From Caulobacter sp. S45 (GTDB lineage: Bacteria; Pseudomonadota; Alphaproteobacteria; Caulobacterales; Caulobacteraceae), in the NCBI RefSeq assembly GCF_903642205.1, contig NZ_CAHJWH010000001.1, positions 1 to 64,000 on the forward strand: 64,000 bases of DNA. Reading direction: 5' to 3'. Position 1 is the first letter of the stretch. The number at the start of each line of letters is the position of its first letter. The translations under genes and the position numbers were made by a program. Below the pieces are notes generated by a model. The model was not told where the DNA came from and did not search any database. It worked only from the letters and a program-made list of their open reading frames with translations. Of the stretch, positions 46,636 through 54,074 are shown one piece after another.

Positions 46636-46660
46636 AACGTCGTATCGGCGCCGCCGTTCC
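46636..46660 (-). promoter_or_regulatory. EcfG promoter for the small membrane protein gene
   Basis: Read on the minus strand: GGAAC (46660-46656), 16-base spacer, CGTT (46639-46636). Exact match to the EcfG consensus, leaving about a 40-base leader. Confidence 0.72.
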
Positions 46661-46686
46661 AGAGCCGGCCATCGCCCGCACTCCGC

Positions 46687-47169
46687 TCAGGTCGGCAAGG
46701 CGTGGATCACCACTTCCGTCTTGCGGCGGAGGGGGACTGGACGACCCTTGTCCGTCAGAGCACCGGTCTCGCCAGCCCCGTTCACCTCGAACTTGGGGGT
46801 CGGCAAGCCGGCGGAGGCCAGGGCCTTCGCCACCGTCGCGGCGCGGCGGCGGGACAGATCGAGGTTGTGGGCTACGCCGCCCGCCGCGTCGGTCAGGCCA
46901 AGCACGCTGACATAGCCGATCCGGCATCCGTGCACCTGGGCGGCTTCCGAGCCGATCACCTGATCCGCGGTGGCCGTCAGCTGGTCCGACCCCTCGGCGA
47001 AGTAGATCGGAAAGACCACGTCGGTACAGGACGGGCTGGTCCCCACCGCCATCGGCTTCAGCGGCGTGGACGCGCAACCGGCCAGCAACAGGGCCGCCAG
47101 CGCCGCGAGCCCCACGCCTGCGCCGGCTCCCATCGCCGCGACCTCGCTTCCTGATCTCAAGCGCATCAT
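46687..47169 (-). CDS. OmpA-like domain lipoprotein
   Basis: A 160-residue protein with a lipoprotein signal (LAALAALLLAGCAS, Cys near residue 32) and an OmpA C-terminal peptidoglycan-binding domain: FPIYFAEGSDQLTATADQVI, then VLGLTDAAGGVAHNLDLSRRRAATVAKAL. Family members anchor the outer membrane to peptidoglycan. A second small lipoprotein gene lies just upstream, same direction, 20 bases apart. The start ATG-ATG pair is chosen from the signal peptide. Confidence 0.8.
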   Translation of the reverse strand: MMRLRSGSEVAAMGAGAGVGLAALAALLLAGCASTPLKPMAVGTSPSCTDVVFPIYFAEGSDQLTATADQVIGSEAAQVHGCRIGYVSVLGLTDAAGGVAHNLDLSRRRAATVAKALASAGLPTPKFEVNGAGETGALTDKGRPVPLRRKTEVVIHALPT

Positions 47170-47189
47170 TCGCCTCGCCCCCAAACCGG

Positions 47190-47420
47190 TCAGCTCTTGG
47201 GCTGGCCGTTCTCCCAGAAGAACCGCTTCTGCGTCAGATCGTAGTAGTAGTAGCGGTTGTGCGCTTTGTCGAAATACTGATGGTGCGGGTCTCGGTGGTA
47301 GGTAGGGCCGCTGTCCGCCGTGGAGGTGTTGCCCAGGCGAGCCCAGTCCGGCCGGGCCACGTGGCGCACGGCGCAACCGCAAAGGCCGATCGCCAGGCAC
47401 GCGGCGAAAGACACCCTCAT
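47190..47420 (-). CDS. Small lipoprotein, hypothetical
   Basis: A 76-residue protein with a short signal ending in a lipobox (IGLCGCAV; acylated Cys at position 16). The mature part is rich in Tyr, His and Asp, with the patch HNRYYYYDLTQKRFFWENG near the C-terminus. No known domain. It is upstream of the OmpA-like gene and likely in one transcript with it. Confidence 0.65.
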   Translation of the reverse strand: MRVSFAACLAIGLCGCAVRHVARPDWARLGNTSTADSGPTYHRDPHHQYFDKAHNRYYYYDLTQKRFFWENGQPKS

Positions 47421-47505
47421 CCGCCCCCCATAAGCGCACCCGCGTGCGGACTGTTACCGCCGACCACCTGCCGCACGATGTCGGAGCCTGCGCGCGAGTT
47501 CAAGA

Positions 47506-47530
47506 GGAACGCAGGTCTGCGCCATCCGTT
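47506..47530 (+). promoter_or_regulatory. EcfG promoter for DAG-kinase-like gene
   Basis: GGAAC at 47506-47510, a 16-base spacer and CGTT at 47527-47530. The ATG at 47539 is only nine bases after CGTT, so the expected start of transcription is at or within a few bases of the ATG. Confidence 0.72.
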
Positions 47531-47538
47531 TCGCAGGC

Positions 47539-48528
47539 ATGGCAGAACTGCACCCCGACGCTCGCCTCACTCCCCACGTGCGGCTCGGCAAGGTGACGGC
47601 GGTTCTCAACGCCGCGTCCGGAAGCGTCGGCGCCGACGCAGCGGCCCGCATGAAGGCGATCGCCGCCCGGTATGGCCTTGATATCGAGCCGCGCGCCGTC
47701 CAGCCCGCCGGCATCGCCGATGCGGTCCGGGCGGCTGTGGCGGAGCGGCCTGACGCCTTGTTCGTCCTCGCGGGCGACGGCACCCTGGCCCTGAGTGCGG
47801 AGCTATGTGGGCCCGACGGACCCCTGCTCGCGGCCCTTCCGGGCGGCACCATGAACATGCTGCCTCACGCCTTGAACGGTCGCCGCGCGTGGCCCGAAGC
47901 CCTTACCGCCATCTTGGAGACGGGCCGAGAGCTCGAAGTCTCAGGCGGTGAAGTCGGCGGCCACGGCTTCTACGTCGCCGCGATCCTTGGGGCCCCGGCG
48001 CTATGGGCGGATGCGCGGGAGGCGGTGCGCAAGGGCAAGCTGAAGCTCGCAGTGCTGCGTGCACGTCGGGCGCTGCTGCGCGCCTTCAAGGGGCGGCTGC
48101 GGTTCGAACTCAACGGCGGGGAGCGGCGCAAGGCCGAGGCCCTGACGTTGATGTGCCCGCTGGTCTCCCAGGGGCTGGACGAGGACGTGGGGCTGGAGGC
48201 TGCGACGCTCGATCCGAAAGGGGCGCTGGACGGCTTCCGCCTGGGCTTCAGCACGCTCACCGGCGGGTGGCGGAACGATCCGTCGGTGAAGATCGAGATC
48301 TGCACCTCGGGGACGGCCTGGGCGCATGGGCGCGTTCCGGTGATCCTCGACGGCGAGCCACGCCGGATGGACCCACCGGTGAAGCTCGCCTATCGCCGGC
48401 GCGCCTTCCGCGCCCTGGTCCCTGGAGACTGCGAAGCCTTGCGAGCCCGAAGCGAGGTTGGCGAGCACGCCGCCCGCAAGGCCGCTCGTGGCGCCGCGGC
48501 GGTCGGGGTCGAGCGGCCGGCGGCGTGA
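47539..48528 (+). CDS. Diacylglycerol/sphingosine kinase-like lipid kinase
   Basis: A 329-residue protein with the DAGK catalytic fold: NAASGSVG opens the domain, LAGDGTLALSAEL is the GGDGT motif variant (Gly-Asp-Gly-Thr) and LPGGTMNMLPHAL the second glycine loop. Such kinases phosphorylate diacylglycerol, ceramide, or NAD-like substrates; substrate not known here. A perfect EcfG promoter immediately precedes the ATG, and no Shine-Dalgarno is visible, implying leaderless translation. The downstream phosphoesterase gene starts right at its stop, so the two form a stress operon. Confidence 0.8.
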   Translation: MAELHPDARLTPHVRLGKVTAVLNAASGSVGADAAARMKAIAARYGLDIEPRAVQPAGIADAVRAAVAERPDALFVLAGDGTLALSAELCGPDGPLLAALPGGTMNMLPHALNGRRAWPEALTAILETGRELEVSGGEVGGHGFYVAAILGAPALWADAREAVRKGKLKLAVLRARRALLRAFKGRLRFELNGGERRKAEALTLMCPLVSQGLDEDVGLEAATLDPKGALDGFRLGFSTLTGGWRNDPSVKIEICTSGTAWAHGRVPVILDGEPRRMDPPVKLAYRRRAFRALVPGDCEALRARSEVGEHAARKAARGAAAVGVERPAA

Positions 48529-49397
48529 TGCGGGTCGTACAGCTCAGCGACATCCACTTCGGCGGCGAGGATGCGGCCGCCCTCGACGCGGCGACCACCT
48601 ATGTGACCGCCGATCCGCCGGATCTAGTGATGGTGACGGGCGATCTGACGCTGAACGGCACCCCGCGGGAGTTCCGCTCGGCCGAGCTATGGCTGGCGCG
48701 CCTTCCGAACCCGCTGCTCGTCACGCCCGGCAACCACGATACGCCCTATTGGAACCTGCCGTTGCGCGCGCTCCAGCCGTTCAAGCGCTACCGGCGCTTT
48801 ATCGGACAGCCGTCCGCTTCCCGCTATGACGTGGCGGGATTGCACGCCCGCACGATCAACACCTCACGTGGCGCCCAGCCCCGGTTCGACTGGTCGAAAG
48901 GCGCGGTGAGCCTCAAGCTGGCCTCCGCTGCGGCGGAGGCGATCACCGCCTTTCCCGCCGACGAGATCAGGATCATCGGCTGCCATCATCCGCTGATGGA
49001 GATCACTGGAACGCCGGTCACCGGGGGCGTGCACCGGGGCCAGACGGCGGCGAAGCTGTTCTGCGATCGCGGGATCGACATCATCCTGACCGGCCACGTC
49101 CACACTCCGTTCGCCGTGGCCCTGCCGTTCGGAGACGGCCAGACCTACGCCGTCGGGGCCGGCACGCTGTCGGTGCGCACCCGTGGCGCCCCTCCAGGCT
49201 TCAATGTCCTGGAAATCTCGCCAGGCTGCGTGGAAGTCACAGCCCTCGGCTGGATCGGAGCAGCACTGGAAATTCATCGCGTCTGGCGGCTGCCCCGCCG
49301 ATCTGCGCCGGAGGGAGCTGCGCCTGAGCCGAAGCTTTCCCGTGCGGAGGTCGTCGTTCAGAACGAAGGGCCCAGCGCTGCCGCCGGGCCCTCCTGA
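48528..49397 (+). CDS. Class III metallophosphoesterase
   Basis: A 289-residue calcineurin-like phosphoesterase with the full motif set QLSDIHFGG, VTGDLTLNG, TPGNHDTPYWN, GCHHPL and TGHVHTPF, which carry the dinuclear metal ligands. Cyclic-nucleotide or phospholipid phosphoesterases share the architecture. TGATG overlaps the previous stop, so it is co-expressed with the lipid kinase-like gene under an EcfG promoter; kinase and phosphatase may act on the same lipid. The last ~10 residues overlap a GGGCCC-rich hairpin, perhaps a terminator extending into the coding end. Confidence 0.85.
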   Translation: MRVVQLSDIHFGGEDAAALDAATTYVTADPPDLVMVTGDLTLNGTPREFRSAELWLARLPNPLLVTPGNHDTPYWNLPLRALQPFKRYRRFIGQPSASRYDVAGLHARTINTSRGAQPRFDWSKGAVSLKLASAAAEAITAFPADEIRIIGCHHPLMEITGTPVTGGVHRGQTAAKLFCDRGIDIILTGHVHTPFAVALPFGDGQTYAVGAGTLSVRTRGAPPGFNVLEISPGCVEVTALGWIGAALEIHRVWRLPRRSAPEGAAPEPKLSRAEVVVQNEGPSAAAGPS

Positions 49398-49423
49398 GTT
49401 CCACCGCCGCTTGGCCCAGGGTT

Positions 49424-49594
49424 TCAGATGCCTCTACCCCGGACGAGGTGCATGACCAGAGAGACCAGGAACAGAACGAGGAAGATTACAAACAGGATGT
49501 AGGCGATGTTCGACGCCGCGCCGGCAATTCCGCCAAAGCCCAGCAGGCCCGCGACCAGCGCGACCACCAGGAAAATCAAAGCCCACCTCAGCAT
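49424..49594 (-). CDS. DUF1328 small membrane protein
   Basis: A 56-residue protein, [19 protein letters not shown] onward, of the DUF1328/YtjA type: two hydrophobic helices, a [15 protein letters not shown] turn between them, and a basic VRGRGI tail. A strong AGGGAGG ribosome site precedes the ATG. A perfect EcfG promoter lies 72 bases upstream. Such peptides are commonly stress-induced, but their role is not known. Convergent with the metallophosphoesterase gene. Confidence 0.88.
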
Positions 49595-49665
49595 AGTCCG
49601 CCTCCCTCTCTGATCACGGATCCAGGACGAGGCGATCCCGCCGGCCTCCCATCCGCCCGCCCGTA

Positions 49666-49690
49666 AACGTACGTTGCAGGCGAGCGTTCC
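49666..49690 (-). promoter_or_regulatory. EcfG promoter for the DUF1328 gene
   Basis: Minus strand: GGAAC at 49690-49686, 16-base spacer, CGTT at 49669-49666. Leader of about 65 bases before the DUF1328 ATG. Confidence 0.72.
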
Positions 49691-49762
49691 GACAGCCCCA
49701 CGGCTACGCTAGAGACGGGGCAGCCCGGGACACGGAAGACATCCGGGCGGCAACGCGCAGGA

Positions 49763-50164
49763 TCAGCCCCGCTTCCGTTCCGTACGAGGCTCAAGCACGC
49801 GTAAAACCGTGGAGACAAGGGTGGGATTGCGCCAAGCCAGCAGGCCCGCCGCCACCGCCGCACTCGCGGCGACCACCGGACGATCACTGACCAGATCAGT
49901 CAGGCGTTCCACCAGACTGCCCGACCCGTCCGCCGCCTTGCTCTTGGCTTTCAGATGCGGCCCTTTGGCCTTGCTGAACAGGAAAAGCGCCAGTACGCCG
50001 AGGACGATCGCTGCCGCAAGGGTGACGCAAGCCGCCGATCCTGATGGACCGATATAGGTCCGGAGCAGGGCGTAGAAGGCGAAAGCTGCCGACACTACCA
50101 GCACGCACGCCGCCGCCGCCATGGCGGCGAGCGCGATGACGAAGCTTACCAGCTTTGCGATCAC
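49763..50164 (-). CDS. Small membrane protein, phage-holin-like
   Basis: A 133-residue protein with two strong transmembrane helices in the first half (FVIALAAMAAAACVLVVSAAF and a second, LAAAIVLGVLALFLF), a Lys-rich loop (KAKGPHLKAKSKAADG), and a third moderately hydrophobic stretch (ASAAVAAGLLAW) before a basic tail. It resembles small holin-superfamily or DUF1469-type stress proteins in layout. It overlaps the DUF883-like gene by four bases, so it is driven by the same EcfG promoter. Confidence 0.7.
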   Translation of the reverse strand: MIAKLVSFVIALAAMAAAACVLVVSAAFAFYALLRTYIGPSGSAACVTLAAAIVLGVLALFLFSKAKGPHLKAKSKAADGSGSLVERLTDLVSDRPVVAASAAVAAGLLAWRNPTLVSTVLRVLEPRTERKRG

Positions 50165-50493
50165 CGGCGTCCGCCAGCAAACAGCAGGCCCAGCACAAAG
50201 CCAGCCCCGAGCGCAGCCAGCGTCGCGGTCATCGGCCGTTCCTGCACGCGCTCCACCATGTAGAGCTTGGCGGTGTCAAACTGGTCGCCGGCCTGGTCGG
50301 CGGCGTCACGCGCCTGATGCCGCAGCTGGTCTACGCCGTCGTCGAAGGCCTTGCGGGCGTCACCCTTCAGCTTGGGCAAGGCGCGGCGGCCTTCTTCGAC
50401 CGTCTCACGGGCGCTGCGGGCGGTTTGACGCGCGCTGTCCAGGGTGCTCCCCACCTTGGATGCGACAGGATCTAAGGTCGAGGAAGCCGCCAT
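50161..50493 (-). CDS. DUF883-like (ElaB/YqjD) membrane-anchored protein
   Basis: A 110-residue protein with a long amphipathic Gln/Arg/Asp-rich helix (SARQTARSARETVEEGRRAL) followed by a C-terminal hydrophobic anchor (ATLAALGAGFVLGLLFAGGRR). This is the ElaB/YqjD/DUF883 layout; YqjD tethers inactive ribosomes to the membrane in stationary E. coli. A perfect EcfG promoter lies 36 bases upstream. Co-transcribed with the membrane protein gene downstream. Confidence 0.8.
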   Translation of the reverse strand: MAASSTLDPVASKVGSTLDSARQTARSARETVEEGRRALPKLKGDARKAFDDGVDQLRHQARDAADQAGDQFDTAKLYMVERVQERPMTATLAALGAGFVLGLLFAGGRR

Positions 50494-50528
50494 CGCAAAA
50501 TATCCTATCCAACTTGATGCGGCCTCGA

Positions 50529-50553
50529 AACGCGGCGCTGTAGCACCGGTTCC
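50529..50553 (-). promoter_or_regulatory. EcfG promoter for the DUF883-like operon
   Basis: Minus strand: GGAAC at 50553-50549, 16-base spacer, CGTT at 50532-50529. Perfect match; leader about 30 bases. Confidence 0.72.
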
Positions 50554-50565
50554 GCCTCCGATCAG

Positions 50566-51363
50566 CTAGGCGGCGACCTTGGGACGGGCGGGATGGAAGA
50601 ACAGCGCCTGCCCGATCGCCGCCTTCACCGTCTCCGGCTGGAACGGCTTGGTGATCAGGAAGGTCGGTTCAGGCCGCTCTCCCGTCAGCAGACGCTCGGG
50701 GAAGGCGGTGATGAAGATGACGGGGACGTCGAAGCGGCCCAGGATATCCTTCACCGCGTCGATGCCCGACGATCCGTCCGCCAGCTGGATGTCGGCCAGG
50801 ACCAGGCCGGGCGTGGCGCGCCCAACGGCCTCAACCGCTTCCCTGCGGGTCGAGGCGACATCCAGAACCTTGTGACCAAGCTCGCGGACCAACGCCTCGA
50901 TGTCGGCGGCGATGACCGGTTCGTCCTCGATGATCAGCACCTCGGTAGCGAGCTCGGCGTCGATCTCGCCCTGCGCCTCGGAGATCAGCACCTCGATCTC
51001 CCCCGCGCTGGCGCCCAGGATCTGGCCCGCCTCCGATGGATTGAAGCCCTCCAGGGCGGTGAGCAGAAAGGCCTGCCGCGACCTTGGAGCGATGCGCATC
51101 AGCCGGCCGGACGCGTTGCCGGCCTCCATGCCGTTGTCGTTGCGGGCCTCAAGCTGAGCCCCCGTGCCATCCCAGATGGTGTGGAAGACGTGATACAGCG
51201 CCACGCGCGGCGTGAGGTGAGGCGGAAGCGACCGCTCCCCAGCGGCCAGGGCCTCAAGGGACGCCCGCACATAGGCGTCGCCTGCGCTCTGCTCGCCGGT
51301 TAGGGCGCGAGCGTAGCGCCGCATGTACGGCAAGTGCGGCGCCAGCCGTTCCAACAGACCCAT
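50566..51363 (-). CDS. phyR: General stress response regulator PhyR
   Basis: Anti-anti-sigma factor of the alphaproteobacterial general stress response. A sigma-like domain at residues 1-130 mimics EcfG for NepR, and a receiver at about 141-262 has acidic Glu146/Asp147, phosphoacceptor Asp191 in LADIQLADG, and Lys239 (LITKPF). FITAFPERLLTG contains the family alpha4-beta4 substitution pattern (FATGUY-like). On phosphorylation it binds NepR and frees EcfG. The gene is divergent from nepR-ecfG with 216 bases between; I see no EcfG promoter on its own side. Confidence 0.93.
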   Translation of the reverse strand: MGLLERLAPHLPYMRRYARALTGEQSAGDAYVRASLEALAAGERSLPPHLTPRVALYHVFHTIWDGTGAQLEARNDNGMEAGNASGRLMRIAPRSRQAFLLTALEGFNPSEAGQILGASAGEIEVLISEAQGEIDAELATEVLIIEDEPVIAADIEALVRELGHKVLDVASTRREAVEAVGRATPGLVLADIQLADGSSGIDAVKDILGRFDVPVIFITAFPERLLTGERPEPTFLITKPFQPETVKAAIGQALFFHPARPKVAA

Positions 51364-51494
51364 ACCGCCTCCAAACGAACCTTACAGAGATGACCTGTCG
51401 AGCCGTCTCACGCAGCCACGCTGCGTACGACGTGAGAGGCGGCTTCCCGTTTTGGAAGAGGCGCCTTCACGCGTCAATATACGGTCTATTCTGC

Positions 51495-51519
51495 GGAACC
51501 CTAGTCATGTCGGCGAGTT
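51495..51519 (+). promoter_or_regulatory. EcfG-type autoregulatory promoter for nepR-ecfG-phyK
   Basis: GGAAC at 51495-51499, 17 bases, then GTT at 51517-51519 (A rather than C before it). A slightly degenerate EcfG site giving positive feedback on the operon; TSS about 55 bases before the nepR ATG. Confidence 0.65.
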
Positions 51520-51579
51520 TTTGCCCATCGTCCCGCCAATCTCTGAGCGCGCTTCGAGGCGTACGAATGGACACCGACC

Positions 51580-51780
51580 ATGAAGGACGACGGCCAGCCT
51601 CGCCAACCCGCAACCCCTGCAGCCGAGCCGACTCTGAATGAGGCCAGACTGCGTCAGCAGGCCATCGGGGTGAAACTGCGCCACATGTTCGACGAGATCG
51701 TCAACGAGCCTGTGCCACAAGACTTTCTTGATATCCTTCGGCGCGCCGATGATAAGGGTGGGGCTGGCGGTAAGGGCTGA
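51580..51780 (+). CDS. nepR: Anti-sigma factor NepR
   Basis: A 66-residue protein that holds EcfG inactive until PhyR displaces it. The short conserved core IGVKLRHMFDEIVNEPVPQDFLDILRRAD is the two-helix NepR fold; flanking tails are disordered and Gly/Lys-rich. Its TGA overlaps the ecfG ATG (TGATG), ensuring equal expression. An EcfG-type promoter lies upstream, so it is part of the autoregulated operon. Confidence 0.93.
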   Translation: MKDDGQPRQPATPAAEPTLNEARLRQQAIGVKLRHMFDEIVNEPVPQDFLDILRRADDKGGAGGKG

Positions 51781-52373
51781 TGGTCCAACGTAACAATCTA
51801 GACGCCGCCTCCGAAGCCGCGTTCCAACGCGATCTCGTAGGCCTCATTCCCCACCTGCGCGCCTTCGCCCGCACCCTGTGCGGCGATGCCGCGGCGGCCG
51901 ACGACCTGGCCCAAGACGCCACGCTGAAGGCATGGGATGCGCGGTCCAGCTTCCAGATGGGCACCAACATGAAGGCCTGGACCTTCATGATCCTGCGCAA
52001 CCAGTTCTATTCCGAGAAGCGAAGGTCATGGCGGCAGTCCCAGCTCGACCAGGAGGCGGCGGAGCGGACCTTGGTGGCTGCGGACGACCCAGAAGCGCCC
52101 GTCGCCCTGGACGAGATGCGCCTGGCCATGGGCATGCTGCCGACTGAGCAGCGCGAGGCGTTGATCCTGGTGGGCGCGGGCGGCTTCGCCTACGAGGAGG
52201 CGGCGGACATCTGCGGCTGCGCCGTGGGGACGGTGAAGAGCCGGGTCAGCAGGGCCCGTCGCGCCCTGCAGGGCATTCTTGAACAGGGCGCCTATCACCG
52301 TGACGGCCGGGCGGCCGGCGAGGCCATGCGGTCCATCCTGAACGATGCGGAGCGGTTGAGCGGACCGCGCTGA
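51780..52373 (+). CDS. ecfG: EcfG/SigT-type general stress sigma factor
   Basis: ECF sigma factor of the EcfG class. The 197-residue protein has region 2 (LIPHLRAFARTLCGDAAAADDLAQDATLKAWD) and region 4 (MLPTEQREALILVGAGGFAYEEAADICGCAVGTVKSRVSRARRAL) and lacks any other domain. It recognises GGAAC-N16/17-CGTT. The ATG overlaps the nepR stop. Equivalent to SigT in Caulobacter. All EcfG promoters marked in this window are predicted targets of this product. Confidence 0.93.
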   Translation: MVQRNNLDAASEAAFQRDLVGLIPHLRAFARTLCGDAAAADDLAQDATLKAWDARSSFQMGTNMKAWTFMILRNQFYSEKRRSWRQSQLDQEAAERTLVAADDPEAPVALDEMRLAMGMLPTEQREALILVGAGGFAYEEAADICGCAVGTVKSRVSRARRALQGILEQGAYHRDGRAAGEAMRSILNDAERLSGPR

Positions 52374-52374
52374 C

Positions 52375-54069
52375 ATGGGCGCCTCCGGCCGCCTGACGAT
52401 CCGCTTCCGACTGGGCCTGGCTCTCGCCGTGGCCCTCTTCCCCGTACTCGTCCTTGGCGCGCTTCAGGTCGCCACCGAGTTCAACCGGGAAGGCCACATC
52501 CGCCAGGTGACGCTCACCCAGGCGGCCACCCGGAGCGCGCTGACCGGCCGGGCGCGCATCCAGGGGGCGATGGCCCTGCTGGACACCTTGCGGCCGGAAG
52601 CGGTGGGGCTGGAGTGCACGCCACGCCTCGCCGCCATCCTCAATGAGCTGGACGGCTACCGCAACATCGTCCGGCTCGACGCCGACGGCCGGGTGGTCTG
52701 CGCAGGAGCCAGCCTGCCCGCGGCGAACAGGGCGAGCCTGCCCTGGTTCCAACGCCTGAAGGCCGGGACGCAGACCGTGGTGGCGCGATCACAGGCTGCG
52801 GGCGAGCCGGCCCTCATCGCCGCTACGCGCGCCGAGCGTCGCGACGGACATTTTGACGGGGCGCTGATCGCCTCCATCCTGCTCTCAAGTCTGAAGCCCG
52901 ACCTGTCGGACCCGACGCTGCCGGCACGGACGGCGGTGGCTATTGTCTCAGGAGACGGGCACTACCTGGTGCAGACGGACCGGGACGCCTTTGCTCCGCT
53001 TCCGGCCGACTGGCGCGCCCGGCTGGCCCAGGGTCACAACCTTTTCACTGCCAAGGACGCGCAGGGCGCGCCGCGTGACTACGCCGCCGCCCAGCTGCTG
53101 AGCGGGGAGGCCTATGTCGTCCTGTCGGCTCCGGCGCCCGGCATCTTCTACTGGGCGCGGCTGAACCCGTTCAGCGCCATCGTCTTCCCCGTCCTGGCGT
53201 GGCTCGCGGCCTGGGTCGCTGTCTGGCTGGCTGTGGATCGCGTGGTCATCCGCTGGCTGCACTATCTCGACAGAATCGCCTCCATCTACGCCCGCGGGCG
53301 CTTCACGGTGCGCCCGCTGAAGGCCGAGAGGGCGCCGGCGGAGATCCGCGATCTGGCGCACACGCTGGACGCCATGGCCGACGCCATCGTCGCCCGCGAC
53401 ATGAGCCTTCGCGACTCCCTCGCGCAGAAGGACACTCTGATGCGCGAGATACATCACAGGGTGAAGAACAACCTTCAGGTCATCACCTCGCTGATCAACA
53501 TGCAGCAGCGCGCCCTGACCGATCCGGCGGCCCGGGCGGCCATGTCGGACACCCGTCAGCGGATCACGGCTCTCGCCCTGATCTATCGCGCCCTCTACCA
53601 GGGTCCCGACCTGCGCAGAGTCGACGTCCGCCAATTCCTGGAGGAGCTGGTCGGCCAGTTGGGCGCAGGCGAGGGCGGGCGGCCCGCGCCCATCCGCACC
53701 GAATTGCATGCCGACGACCTGGAGATCGATCCCGACAAGCTGGCGCCGCTCGCCCTCTTCGCGGTGGAGGCGATCACCAATGCGCGCAAGCATGCCTTCG
53801 GACCGGAAGGCGGCTCCATCGACGTTCGGTTCCGTGTTCTGGGCGACGAGGTGGTGCTGGAAATCCAGGATGACGGCCAAGGCGACGCCGCCTCCATGCC
53901 CATTGCCGGCGTCGGCCGCACCCTGATGAGCGCTTTCGCGCGTCAGCTTCGTGGCCACACCGAGGTGGAGCCCGCCCCGCATTGCGGTGTGTGCGTGAGG
54001 CTCACCTTCCCGCGGCCTCAACTTCCTGAAGCCGAAGAGCTCCATGCCGGGAACCAGGCGGCGGCGTGA
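52375..54069 (+). CDS. phyK: PhyK-like HisKA_2 sensor histidine kinase
   Basis: Membrane histidine kinase expected to phosphorylate PhyR. 564 residues: an N-terminal hydrophobic helix (about residues 12-30), a ~230-residue periplasmic sensor (with dCache-like character), a second helix near 265-285, then a HAMP-like linker and the HisKA_2/HWE core with REIHHRVKNNLQ (His360/His361). The ATPase part has EAITNARKHAFG (N box) and QDDGQGD. It is the fourth gene of the stress locus, one base after ecfG's stop. Its coding end carries the entericidin promoter. Confidence 0.87.
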   Translation: MGASGRLTIRFRLGLALAVALFPVLVLGALQVATEFNREGHIRQVTLTQAATRSALTGRARIQGAMALLDTLRPEAVGLECTPRLAAILNELDGYRNIVRLDADGRVVCAGASLPAANRASLPWFQRLKAGTQTVVARSQAAGEPALIAATRAERRDGHFDGALIASILLSSLKPDLSDPTLPARTAVAIVSGDGHYLVQTDRDAFAPLPADWRARLAQGHNLFTAKDAQGAPRDYAAAQLLSGEAYVVLSAPAPGIFYWARLNPFSAIVFPVLAWLAAWVAVWLAVDRVVIRWLHYLDRIASIYARGRFTVRPLKAERAPAEIRDLAHTLDAMADAIVARDMSLRDSLAQKDTLMREIHHRVKNNLQVITSLINMQQRALTDPAARAAMSDTRQRITALALIYRALYQGPDLRRVDVRQFLEELVGQLGAGEGGRPAPIRTELHADDLEIDPDKLAPLALFAVEAITNARKHAFGPEGGSIDVRFRVLGDEVVLEIQDDGQGDAASMPIAGVGRTLMSAFARQLRGHTEVEPAPHCGVCVRLTFPRPQLPEAEELHAGNQAAA

Positions 54070-54074
54070 TCGTT
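54050..54074 (+). promoter_or_regulatory. EcfG promoter for the entericidin-like pair
   Basis: GGAAC at 54050-54054, 16-base spacer, CGTT at 54071-54074, inside the last codons of phyK. The first entericidin-like ATG is 31 bases after CGTT. Confidence 0.72.

Follow-up and report, generated by a model that had tools for sequence, protein, structure and literature searches.

The 64,000-nucleotide stretch of Caulobacter sp. S45 DNA analyzed here (the window) carries a general stress locus and, to the left of it, two plus-strand genes for a kinase and a phosphoesterase, the first of which starts directly behind a candidate EcfG promoter. The locus raises the question of whether these genes form a stress operon read from a leaderless mRNA and, if so, what the two enzymes do together. 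We approached this by computation, observing the promoter, its conserved spacing, the gene overlap, the protein folds, the catalytic motifs, and the co-occurrence of the genes. The answer that we consider probable is a bicistronic, EcfG-driven, leaderless general-stress operon of the Caulobacteraceae, whose lipid kinase and phosphoesterase act sequentially on a membrane lipid.

The stress locus consists of PhyR, the anti-anti-sigma factor of the general stress response (50566 to 51363, minus strand; PhyR_sigma2, PhyR_sigma-like, and Response_reg domains), an EcfG-type ECF sigma factor (51780 to 52373, plus strand; Sigma70_r2 and Sigma70_r4_2), and an HWE/HisKA_2 sensor histidine kinase with a dCache domain (52375 to 54069, plus strand; HisKA_2, HWE_HK, and dCache_1). 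The name EcfG for this sigma factor rests on its position beside PhyR and the HWE kinase; a PhyR and an EcfG-type factor are thus both present within the window. The DAGK_cat lipid-kinase-like gene (47539 to 48528, plus strand, 329 aa) starts with ATG, stops with TGA, and scores 40.2 bits against Pfam DAGK_cat (gathering cut-off, 23.6). It is followed by a gene for a calcineurin-like metallophosphoesterase (48528 to 49397, plus strand, 289 aa), which also starts with ATG and scores 60.5 bits against Pfam Metallophos (cut-off, 21.5). Stop and start share one base as TGATG, the kinase TGA lying at 48526 to 48528 and the phosphoesterase ATG at 48528 to 48530, so that the arrangement is operon-like. 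A GGGCCC inverted repeat without a T run was also seen at the 3' end of the phosphoesterase gene (49366 to 49392).

To see how far this arrangement extends, 150 kinase loci from 144 Caulobacteraceae genomes were compared; these relatives are not independent and the statistics ignore kinship, so that locus and genome counts overstate the support. The phosphoesterase starts within 250 nt downstream of the kinase at 134 of the 150 loci, with an overlap of 4 bases at 67 loci and of 1 base at 47 (114 together), and it lies downstream at all 79 named loci (80 minus the cut locus L235). The remaining 16 loci comprise 7 with the phosphoesterase on the other side, 6 second kinase copies (43 to 44% identity), and 3 others. 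At those seven (L162, L163, L165, L166, L170, L171, and L173), the phosphoesterase match lies on the kinase's other side, 1.65 to 1.79 kb before its end, which suggests a reversed gene order. No phosphoesterase was found in any of 20 kinase-less genomes searched. PhyR, counted at E 1e-45, is present in 141 of the 144 genomes with the kinase versus 10 of 55 without it, figures that ignore kinship and in which kinase-positive refers to the 144 genomes whose kinase match is strong (about E 1e-54 or lower) rather than to a wider set of 168.

One genus separates the pair from the stress response. PhyR was not found in any of the nine g14 genomes searched, all nine of which have a diverged phosphoesterase, and in six of six stretches (L262 to L267) this gene adjoins a diverged kinase with no box. 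Beyond the family, a wider search of 190 class-level genomes at E 1e-25 returned seven passing genomes, five of them outside Caulobacteraceae, and four of these five distant kinases have a phosphoesterase directly downstream. Among such loci, G389 has the pair and a box with a 26-nt leader, and Methylocella tundrae (L186) has both genes with no box at the kinase. Since g14 keeps the pair without PhyR or the box, and since the pair also occurs outside the family, the comparison indicates that the pairing is separable from its stress control and probably older. The M. tundrae proteins (Beijerinckiaceae) are 56% (kinase) and 53% (phosphoesterase) identical to those of the window, reflecting either transfer or a mis-binned contig. 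Neighboring genes gave no hint of a substrate: at the Caulobacter, Phenylobacterium, and Brevundimonas loci they have almost no domain matches, and beside the diverged pairs they encode LysE, a lipocalin, glucokinase, argininosuccinate synthase, and a nuclease domain, with no lipid pathway among them.

The kinase model (AlphaFold, pLDDT 91.5) has the full two-domain lipid-kinase fold, aligning over nearly its whole length with DgkB (Z 22.5, root mean square deviation of 3.1 Å over 274 aligned residues), SphK1 (Z 21.6), and YegS (Z 20.7); NAD kinases come next at Z 14.8. The nucleotide motif of DAGK_cat kinases is GGDGT. GDGT is invariant in 50 of 50 kinase sequences, and GGTMN (GGT-N) and DGE vary little or not at all; the residue before GDGT is A in all 50 sequences of one alignment (A3) and G in some relatives of another (A1). 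The protein falls far under every NCBIfam equivalog cut-off, the best being MamU at 46.3 of 400 bits. From the model, the first protein is predicted to be a soluble lipid kinase sharing the DgkB/YegS/sphingosine-kinase fold. A single DAGK_cat gene is present in the window's genome, and DgkA (PF01219) was not found in six of seven genomes searched, the window's included; the seventh, in which it is present, is a g14 genome (G014). As the window's genome is 96% complete, the absence of DgkA is likely, not certain.

Class III metallophosphoesterases bind two metals through the motifs D-x-H, GD, GNHD, HH, and GHxH, all of which are invariant in 50 of 50 phosphoesterase sequences. The model (pLDDT 86.8) is closest to GpdQ (Z 24.1) and Rv0805 (Z 23.8), followed by purple acid phosphatases (Z 21.8) and acid sphingomyelinase-like proteins (Z 19.7), and the two phosphodiesterases GpdQ and Rv0805 are its closest solved relatives by both sequence and fold. 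It misses the NCBIfam equivalog cut-offs for CpdA (PRK11148, 13.1 of 225 bits), YaeI (18.5 of 188), and SpdA (16.1 of 400), and no GpdQ model is among the NCBIfam matches listed for it. Matches to the anti-phage families DS8 and DS9 were partial and far under cut-off, and this identity was rejected. The second protein is thus predicted to be a dimetal phosphodiesterase or phosphatase, and both enzymes look active.

The sequence-only reading of this DNA had proposed a two-gene stress operon in which a lipid kinase-like enzyme and a phosphatase control a lipid messenger such as phosphatidate. The operon gains support from the TGATG overlap and from the retention of the pair among relatives, and the kinase assignment from the DAGK_cat match and the modeled DgkB/SphK/YegS fold; the part that fares less well is the partner, which is closest to phosphodiesterases. 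Antagonism of this kind, with the two enzymes setting the level of one lipid phosphate such as phosphatidate, would account for opposite chemistries in close linkage, which a shared substrate pool would explain, but besides the affinity to GpdQ and Rv0805 it has to contend with the futile cycle that opposing enzymes on one transcript would run unless one of them were regulated. We regard it as possible but doubtful. Because of that same affinity, phospholipid turnover, as judged by sequence and model, appears at least as likely.

A second alternative replaces diacylglycerol as the kinase's substrate by ceramide or a sphingoid base, in the manner of the ceramide kinase CpgB of Caulobacter (CCNA_01218). 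The superfamily is the same, the SphK1 score ties with that of DgkB, and CpgB has been reported to make ceramide phosphate in Caulobacter (PMC10331486). However, the only other DAGK_cat gene of a Caulobacter genome (L272 in G129), which was compared in place of CpgB's own sequence, matches the window kinase weakly (E 0.003), so that the window kinase is no close paralogue of it. A sphingoid or ceramide substrate is in our judgment unlikely, and diacylglycerol is the lipid alcohol that we favor.

Stress control of the pair is predicted from the box in front of it. The EcfG-type promoter (47506 to 47530, plus strand) was read directly as GGAAC at 47506 to 47510, a 16-base spacer, and CGTT at 47527 to 47530, followed by TCGCAGGC and then the ATG at 47539. 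Eight bases therefore separate CGTT from the ATG, and the last T of CGTT is at -9. The looser pattern GGAAC-N15-18-SGTT occurs 7 times in the window versus 1.91 expected (0 of 100 shuffles reached 7), and 5 of the 7 matches fall within 46636 to 54074. Genome-wide, GGAAC-N16/17-CGTT is found 24 times, as is its reversed control; since the box is no commoner than its reverse, a single match is weak and the motif alone proves nothing, which makes conservation the test. Further GGAAC-N16-CGTT boxes ring the stress locus at 46636 to 46660, 49666 to 49690, and 50529 to 50553 (minus strand) and at 54050 to 54074 (plus strand); these precede small open reading frames (ORFs; e.g., 50161 to 50493, with a weak DUF883_C match) or sit at the end of the sensor kinase gene. 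On other contigs of the same genome, three more boxes with an ATG 8 to 9 nt downstream were seen (L079, L093, and L091); the ORFs behind them encode 93, 86, and 497 aa, and by eye the 86-aa product resembles a lipoprotein and the 497-aa product an amylase.

The box is kept across genera, with a strict copy at 90 of the 150 kinase loci. At 50 loci in nine genera, it is followed by an in-frame ATG at 8 to 9 nt (genus names were taken from matching contigs): 38 of 39 Brevundimonas loci (g3), 3 of 4 in g1, 2 of 2 in g4, 2 of 4 in g17, 1 of 14 in g21, and the single locus of each of g8, g10, g11, and g13. Five more loci have this spacing with GCAAC replacing GGAAC (2 of 3 in g19 and 3 of 14 in g21); among the EcfG promoters reported for Sphingopyxis granuli, GCAAC ranks as one of the two most frequent -35 boxes (PMC7083833). 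In two further genomes of the window's own genus (G010 and G027), exactly 8 nt again separate the box from the ATG, a spacing that is constant despite differing intervening bases. A strict box with a leader occurs at 40 loci, 28 of them Caulobacter or Caulobacter-like (g22), and in these Caulobacter relatives the box is mostly kept, with leaders of roughly 30 to 67 nt. No box, either strict or leaderless with one mismatch, was found at 55 of the 150 loci, including 26 of 32 Phenylobacterium or Phenylobacterium-like (g7) and 10 of 38 g22 loci; among the C. vibrioides-like loci, L022 and L025 have only near matches, and L234 has no strict box. Because of these 55 loci, EcfG control of the pair, as predicted from the box, is not universal, and in Caulobacter a leader is the rule. 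Consistent with this, neither a lipid kinase nor a phosphoesterase is named among the 27 genes that have been listed as SigT-dependent in starved C. crescentus (PMC3073932). This speaks against a strong effect of SigT on the pair in that species and agrees with the lack of a strict box at some C. vibrioides loci.

With the spacing at 8 to 9 nt, transcription is predicted to start at 47537 to 47539 on the plus strand, no more than 2 nt from the A of the start codon. The 15 bases that end 3 nt ahead of ATG 47539 have a duplex energy with the anti-Shine-Dalgarno of +0.7 kcal/mol, indicating that there is no Shine-Dalgarno sequence, and this ATG is the sole in-frame start between the box and an LTPH-type peptide. 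Across loci, the mean duplex energy is -3.4 kcal/mol at leaderless ATGs (n = 50) versus -6.6 kcal/mol at leadered starts (n = 40), and -2.3 kcal/mol at internal start candidates of the leaderless group (n = 105). An LTPH or LSPH peptide stands at a fixed position before the catalytic domain at 26 of 55 leaderless versus 0 of 42 leadered loci, and the entropy by codon position in that extension (1.33, 1.24, and 1.47 against 1.77, 1.74, and 1.58) is codon-like; by these sequence measures the N-terminal extension of the leaderless loci is protein-coding. The window kinase thus has the marks of a leaderless mRNA: an AUG start, no Shine-Dalgarno sequence, and no other in-frame start before conserved protein.

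The same evidence bears on a third alternative, in which the mRNA has a leader or starts further upstream, an internal GTG (47578 or 47593) serves as the start codon, and the box is coincidental or a minor promoter. Caulobacter orthologues do start near there, with a leader and a Shine-Dalgarno sequence, and the parity of the box with its reverse in the genome would allow for coincidence; however, the two GTGs lack a Shine-Dalgarno sequence (+1.9 and -2.7 kcal/mol), the LTPH peptide encoded ahead of them shows conservation at the protein level, and the 8-nt spacing holds in the two same-genus genomes although the intervening bases differ. The internal GTGs were rejected as starts on the duplex energies and the upstream peptide, and we consider this alternative improbable. 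The sequence-only reading proved correct in placing the end of CGTT nine bases before the ATG and in seeing no Shine-Dalgarno sequence there. Its EcfG-type promoter finds support in the conservation of box and spacing across genomes, its leaderless start, as a predicted 5' end, in the spacing, duplex energy, and LTPH peptide, and the place of this peptide, ahead of the internal GTGs, makes a start further inside the gene unlikely.

Leaderless starts behind EcfG-like boxes do not appear to be confined to this operon. The distance from box to ATG was counted at all 150 sites listed for six Brevundimonas genomes (the listing is part of the matches of 15 genomes): it is 8 bases at 21 sites and 9 bases at 13, and these 34 compare with about 8 expected from the 4.0 sites per distance elsewhere. 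In 21 Caulobacter genomes, 45 box matches stand at 8 to 9 nt versus 16 at 11 to 12 nt, and in the Sphingomonas melonis EcfG regulon table, genes #1765 and #2534 each have a box listed 8 nt ahead of them (PMC6599016). Given the sharp Brevundimonas peak, leaderless EcfG transcripts look like a recurrent class.

Taken together, the retention of the pair across a bacterial family and its stress promoter suggest that membrane-lipid recycling is tied to stress. In the sequential operon that we favor, stress would free EcfG, the pair would be transcribed from the A of the kinase start codon, and the leaderless AUG would be read directly, no ribosome-binding site being involved in making the first protein; the second gene would be translated by coupling through the TGATG overlap. 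The phosphoesterase may then remove a phosphate-linked head group from a membrane lipid, and the kinase may re-phosphorylate the resulting lipid alcohol, most likely diacylglycerol, to phosphatidate, which could re-enter phospholipid synthesis during stress. The transcription start, the dependence on EcfG, the substrates, and the order of the two reactions are what we infer, the order (phosphoesterase, then kinase) by analogy with PlcP. That the kinase acts instead on a soluble, non-lipid substrate, like the NAD kinases that share its fold superfamily and GDG motif and appear lower in its fold list, is very improbable, as lipid kinases top that list at Z 19 to 22.5 with a sharp drop to the NAD kinases, and the protein passes the DAGK_cat cut-off with no Pfam NAD_kinase match. 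More tentatively, and as a speculation that we would not rate as likely, the EcfG regulon of Caulobacteraceae might contain a distinct leaderless promoter class to which, in DgkA-less cells, the sole diacylglycerol-kinase-family enzyme belongs; lipid-alcohol rephosphorylation would on that account be confined to stress, with its substrate supplied by a dedicated phosphodiesterase.

How do these parts compare with known systems? Like Staphylococcus aureus DgkB, YegS, sphingosine kinase 1, and CpgB, the kinase has a DAGK_cat domain, the two-domain fold (Z 20 to 22.5), and the GDGT, GGT-N, and DGE residues; it differs in being about 14 to 19% identical to the solved members, in belonging to a group of which most members have A for the first G of GGDG, and in having a phosphoesterase operon partner and a putative stress promoter. 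The phosphoesterase shares metal motifs and fold (Z 23 to 24) with the class III enzymes GpdQ, Rv0805, and CpdA/Icc but is only about 20% identical to them and reaches no NCBIfam equivalog cut-off. By description, an analogous system is PlcP-Agt, reported as a metallophosphoesterase-type phospholipase C and a glycosyltransferase that remodel lipids under phosphate stress in an alphaproteobacterial methanotroph (PMC9239053): there, too, a metallophosphoesterase has as its partner an enzyme acting on the lipid set free, although in the window that partner is a kinase rather than a glycosyltransferase, and control would be by a stress sigma factor rather than by phosphate. With the EcfG (SigT, RpoE2) general stress regulon, the locus shares the GGAAC-N16-CGTT box and the presence of EcfG and PhyR in the same locus. 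In the literature searched, no mention was found of the kinase-phosphoesterase pair as part of that regulon, and no paper was found joining diacylglycerol kinase, metallophosphoesterase, and the general stress response; if our reading is true, it would add a conserved lipid-metabolism operon to the general stress response of the Alphaproteobacteria. The same operon and box occur with a leader and a Shine-Dalgarno sequence in Caulobacter and without either in Brevundimonas, a natural comparison that makes the role of leaderless initiation in stress translation testable. In the same literature, a single paper mentions both leaderless mRNAs and EcfG, and in the part available it does not link the two. 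A transcription start site study notes that promoters specific to leaderless genes have not been described (PMC4842269); a fixed-spacing EcfG class would be such a promoter type. Like the leaderless mRNAs that are common in C. crescentus (375; PMC4117421) and Sinorhizobium meliloti (171; PMC3616915), the kinase mRNA would carry its start codon at the 5' end, and unlike them it would be tied to a stress sigma promoter at a fixed spacing of 8 to 9 nt.
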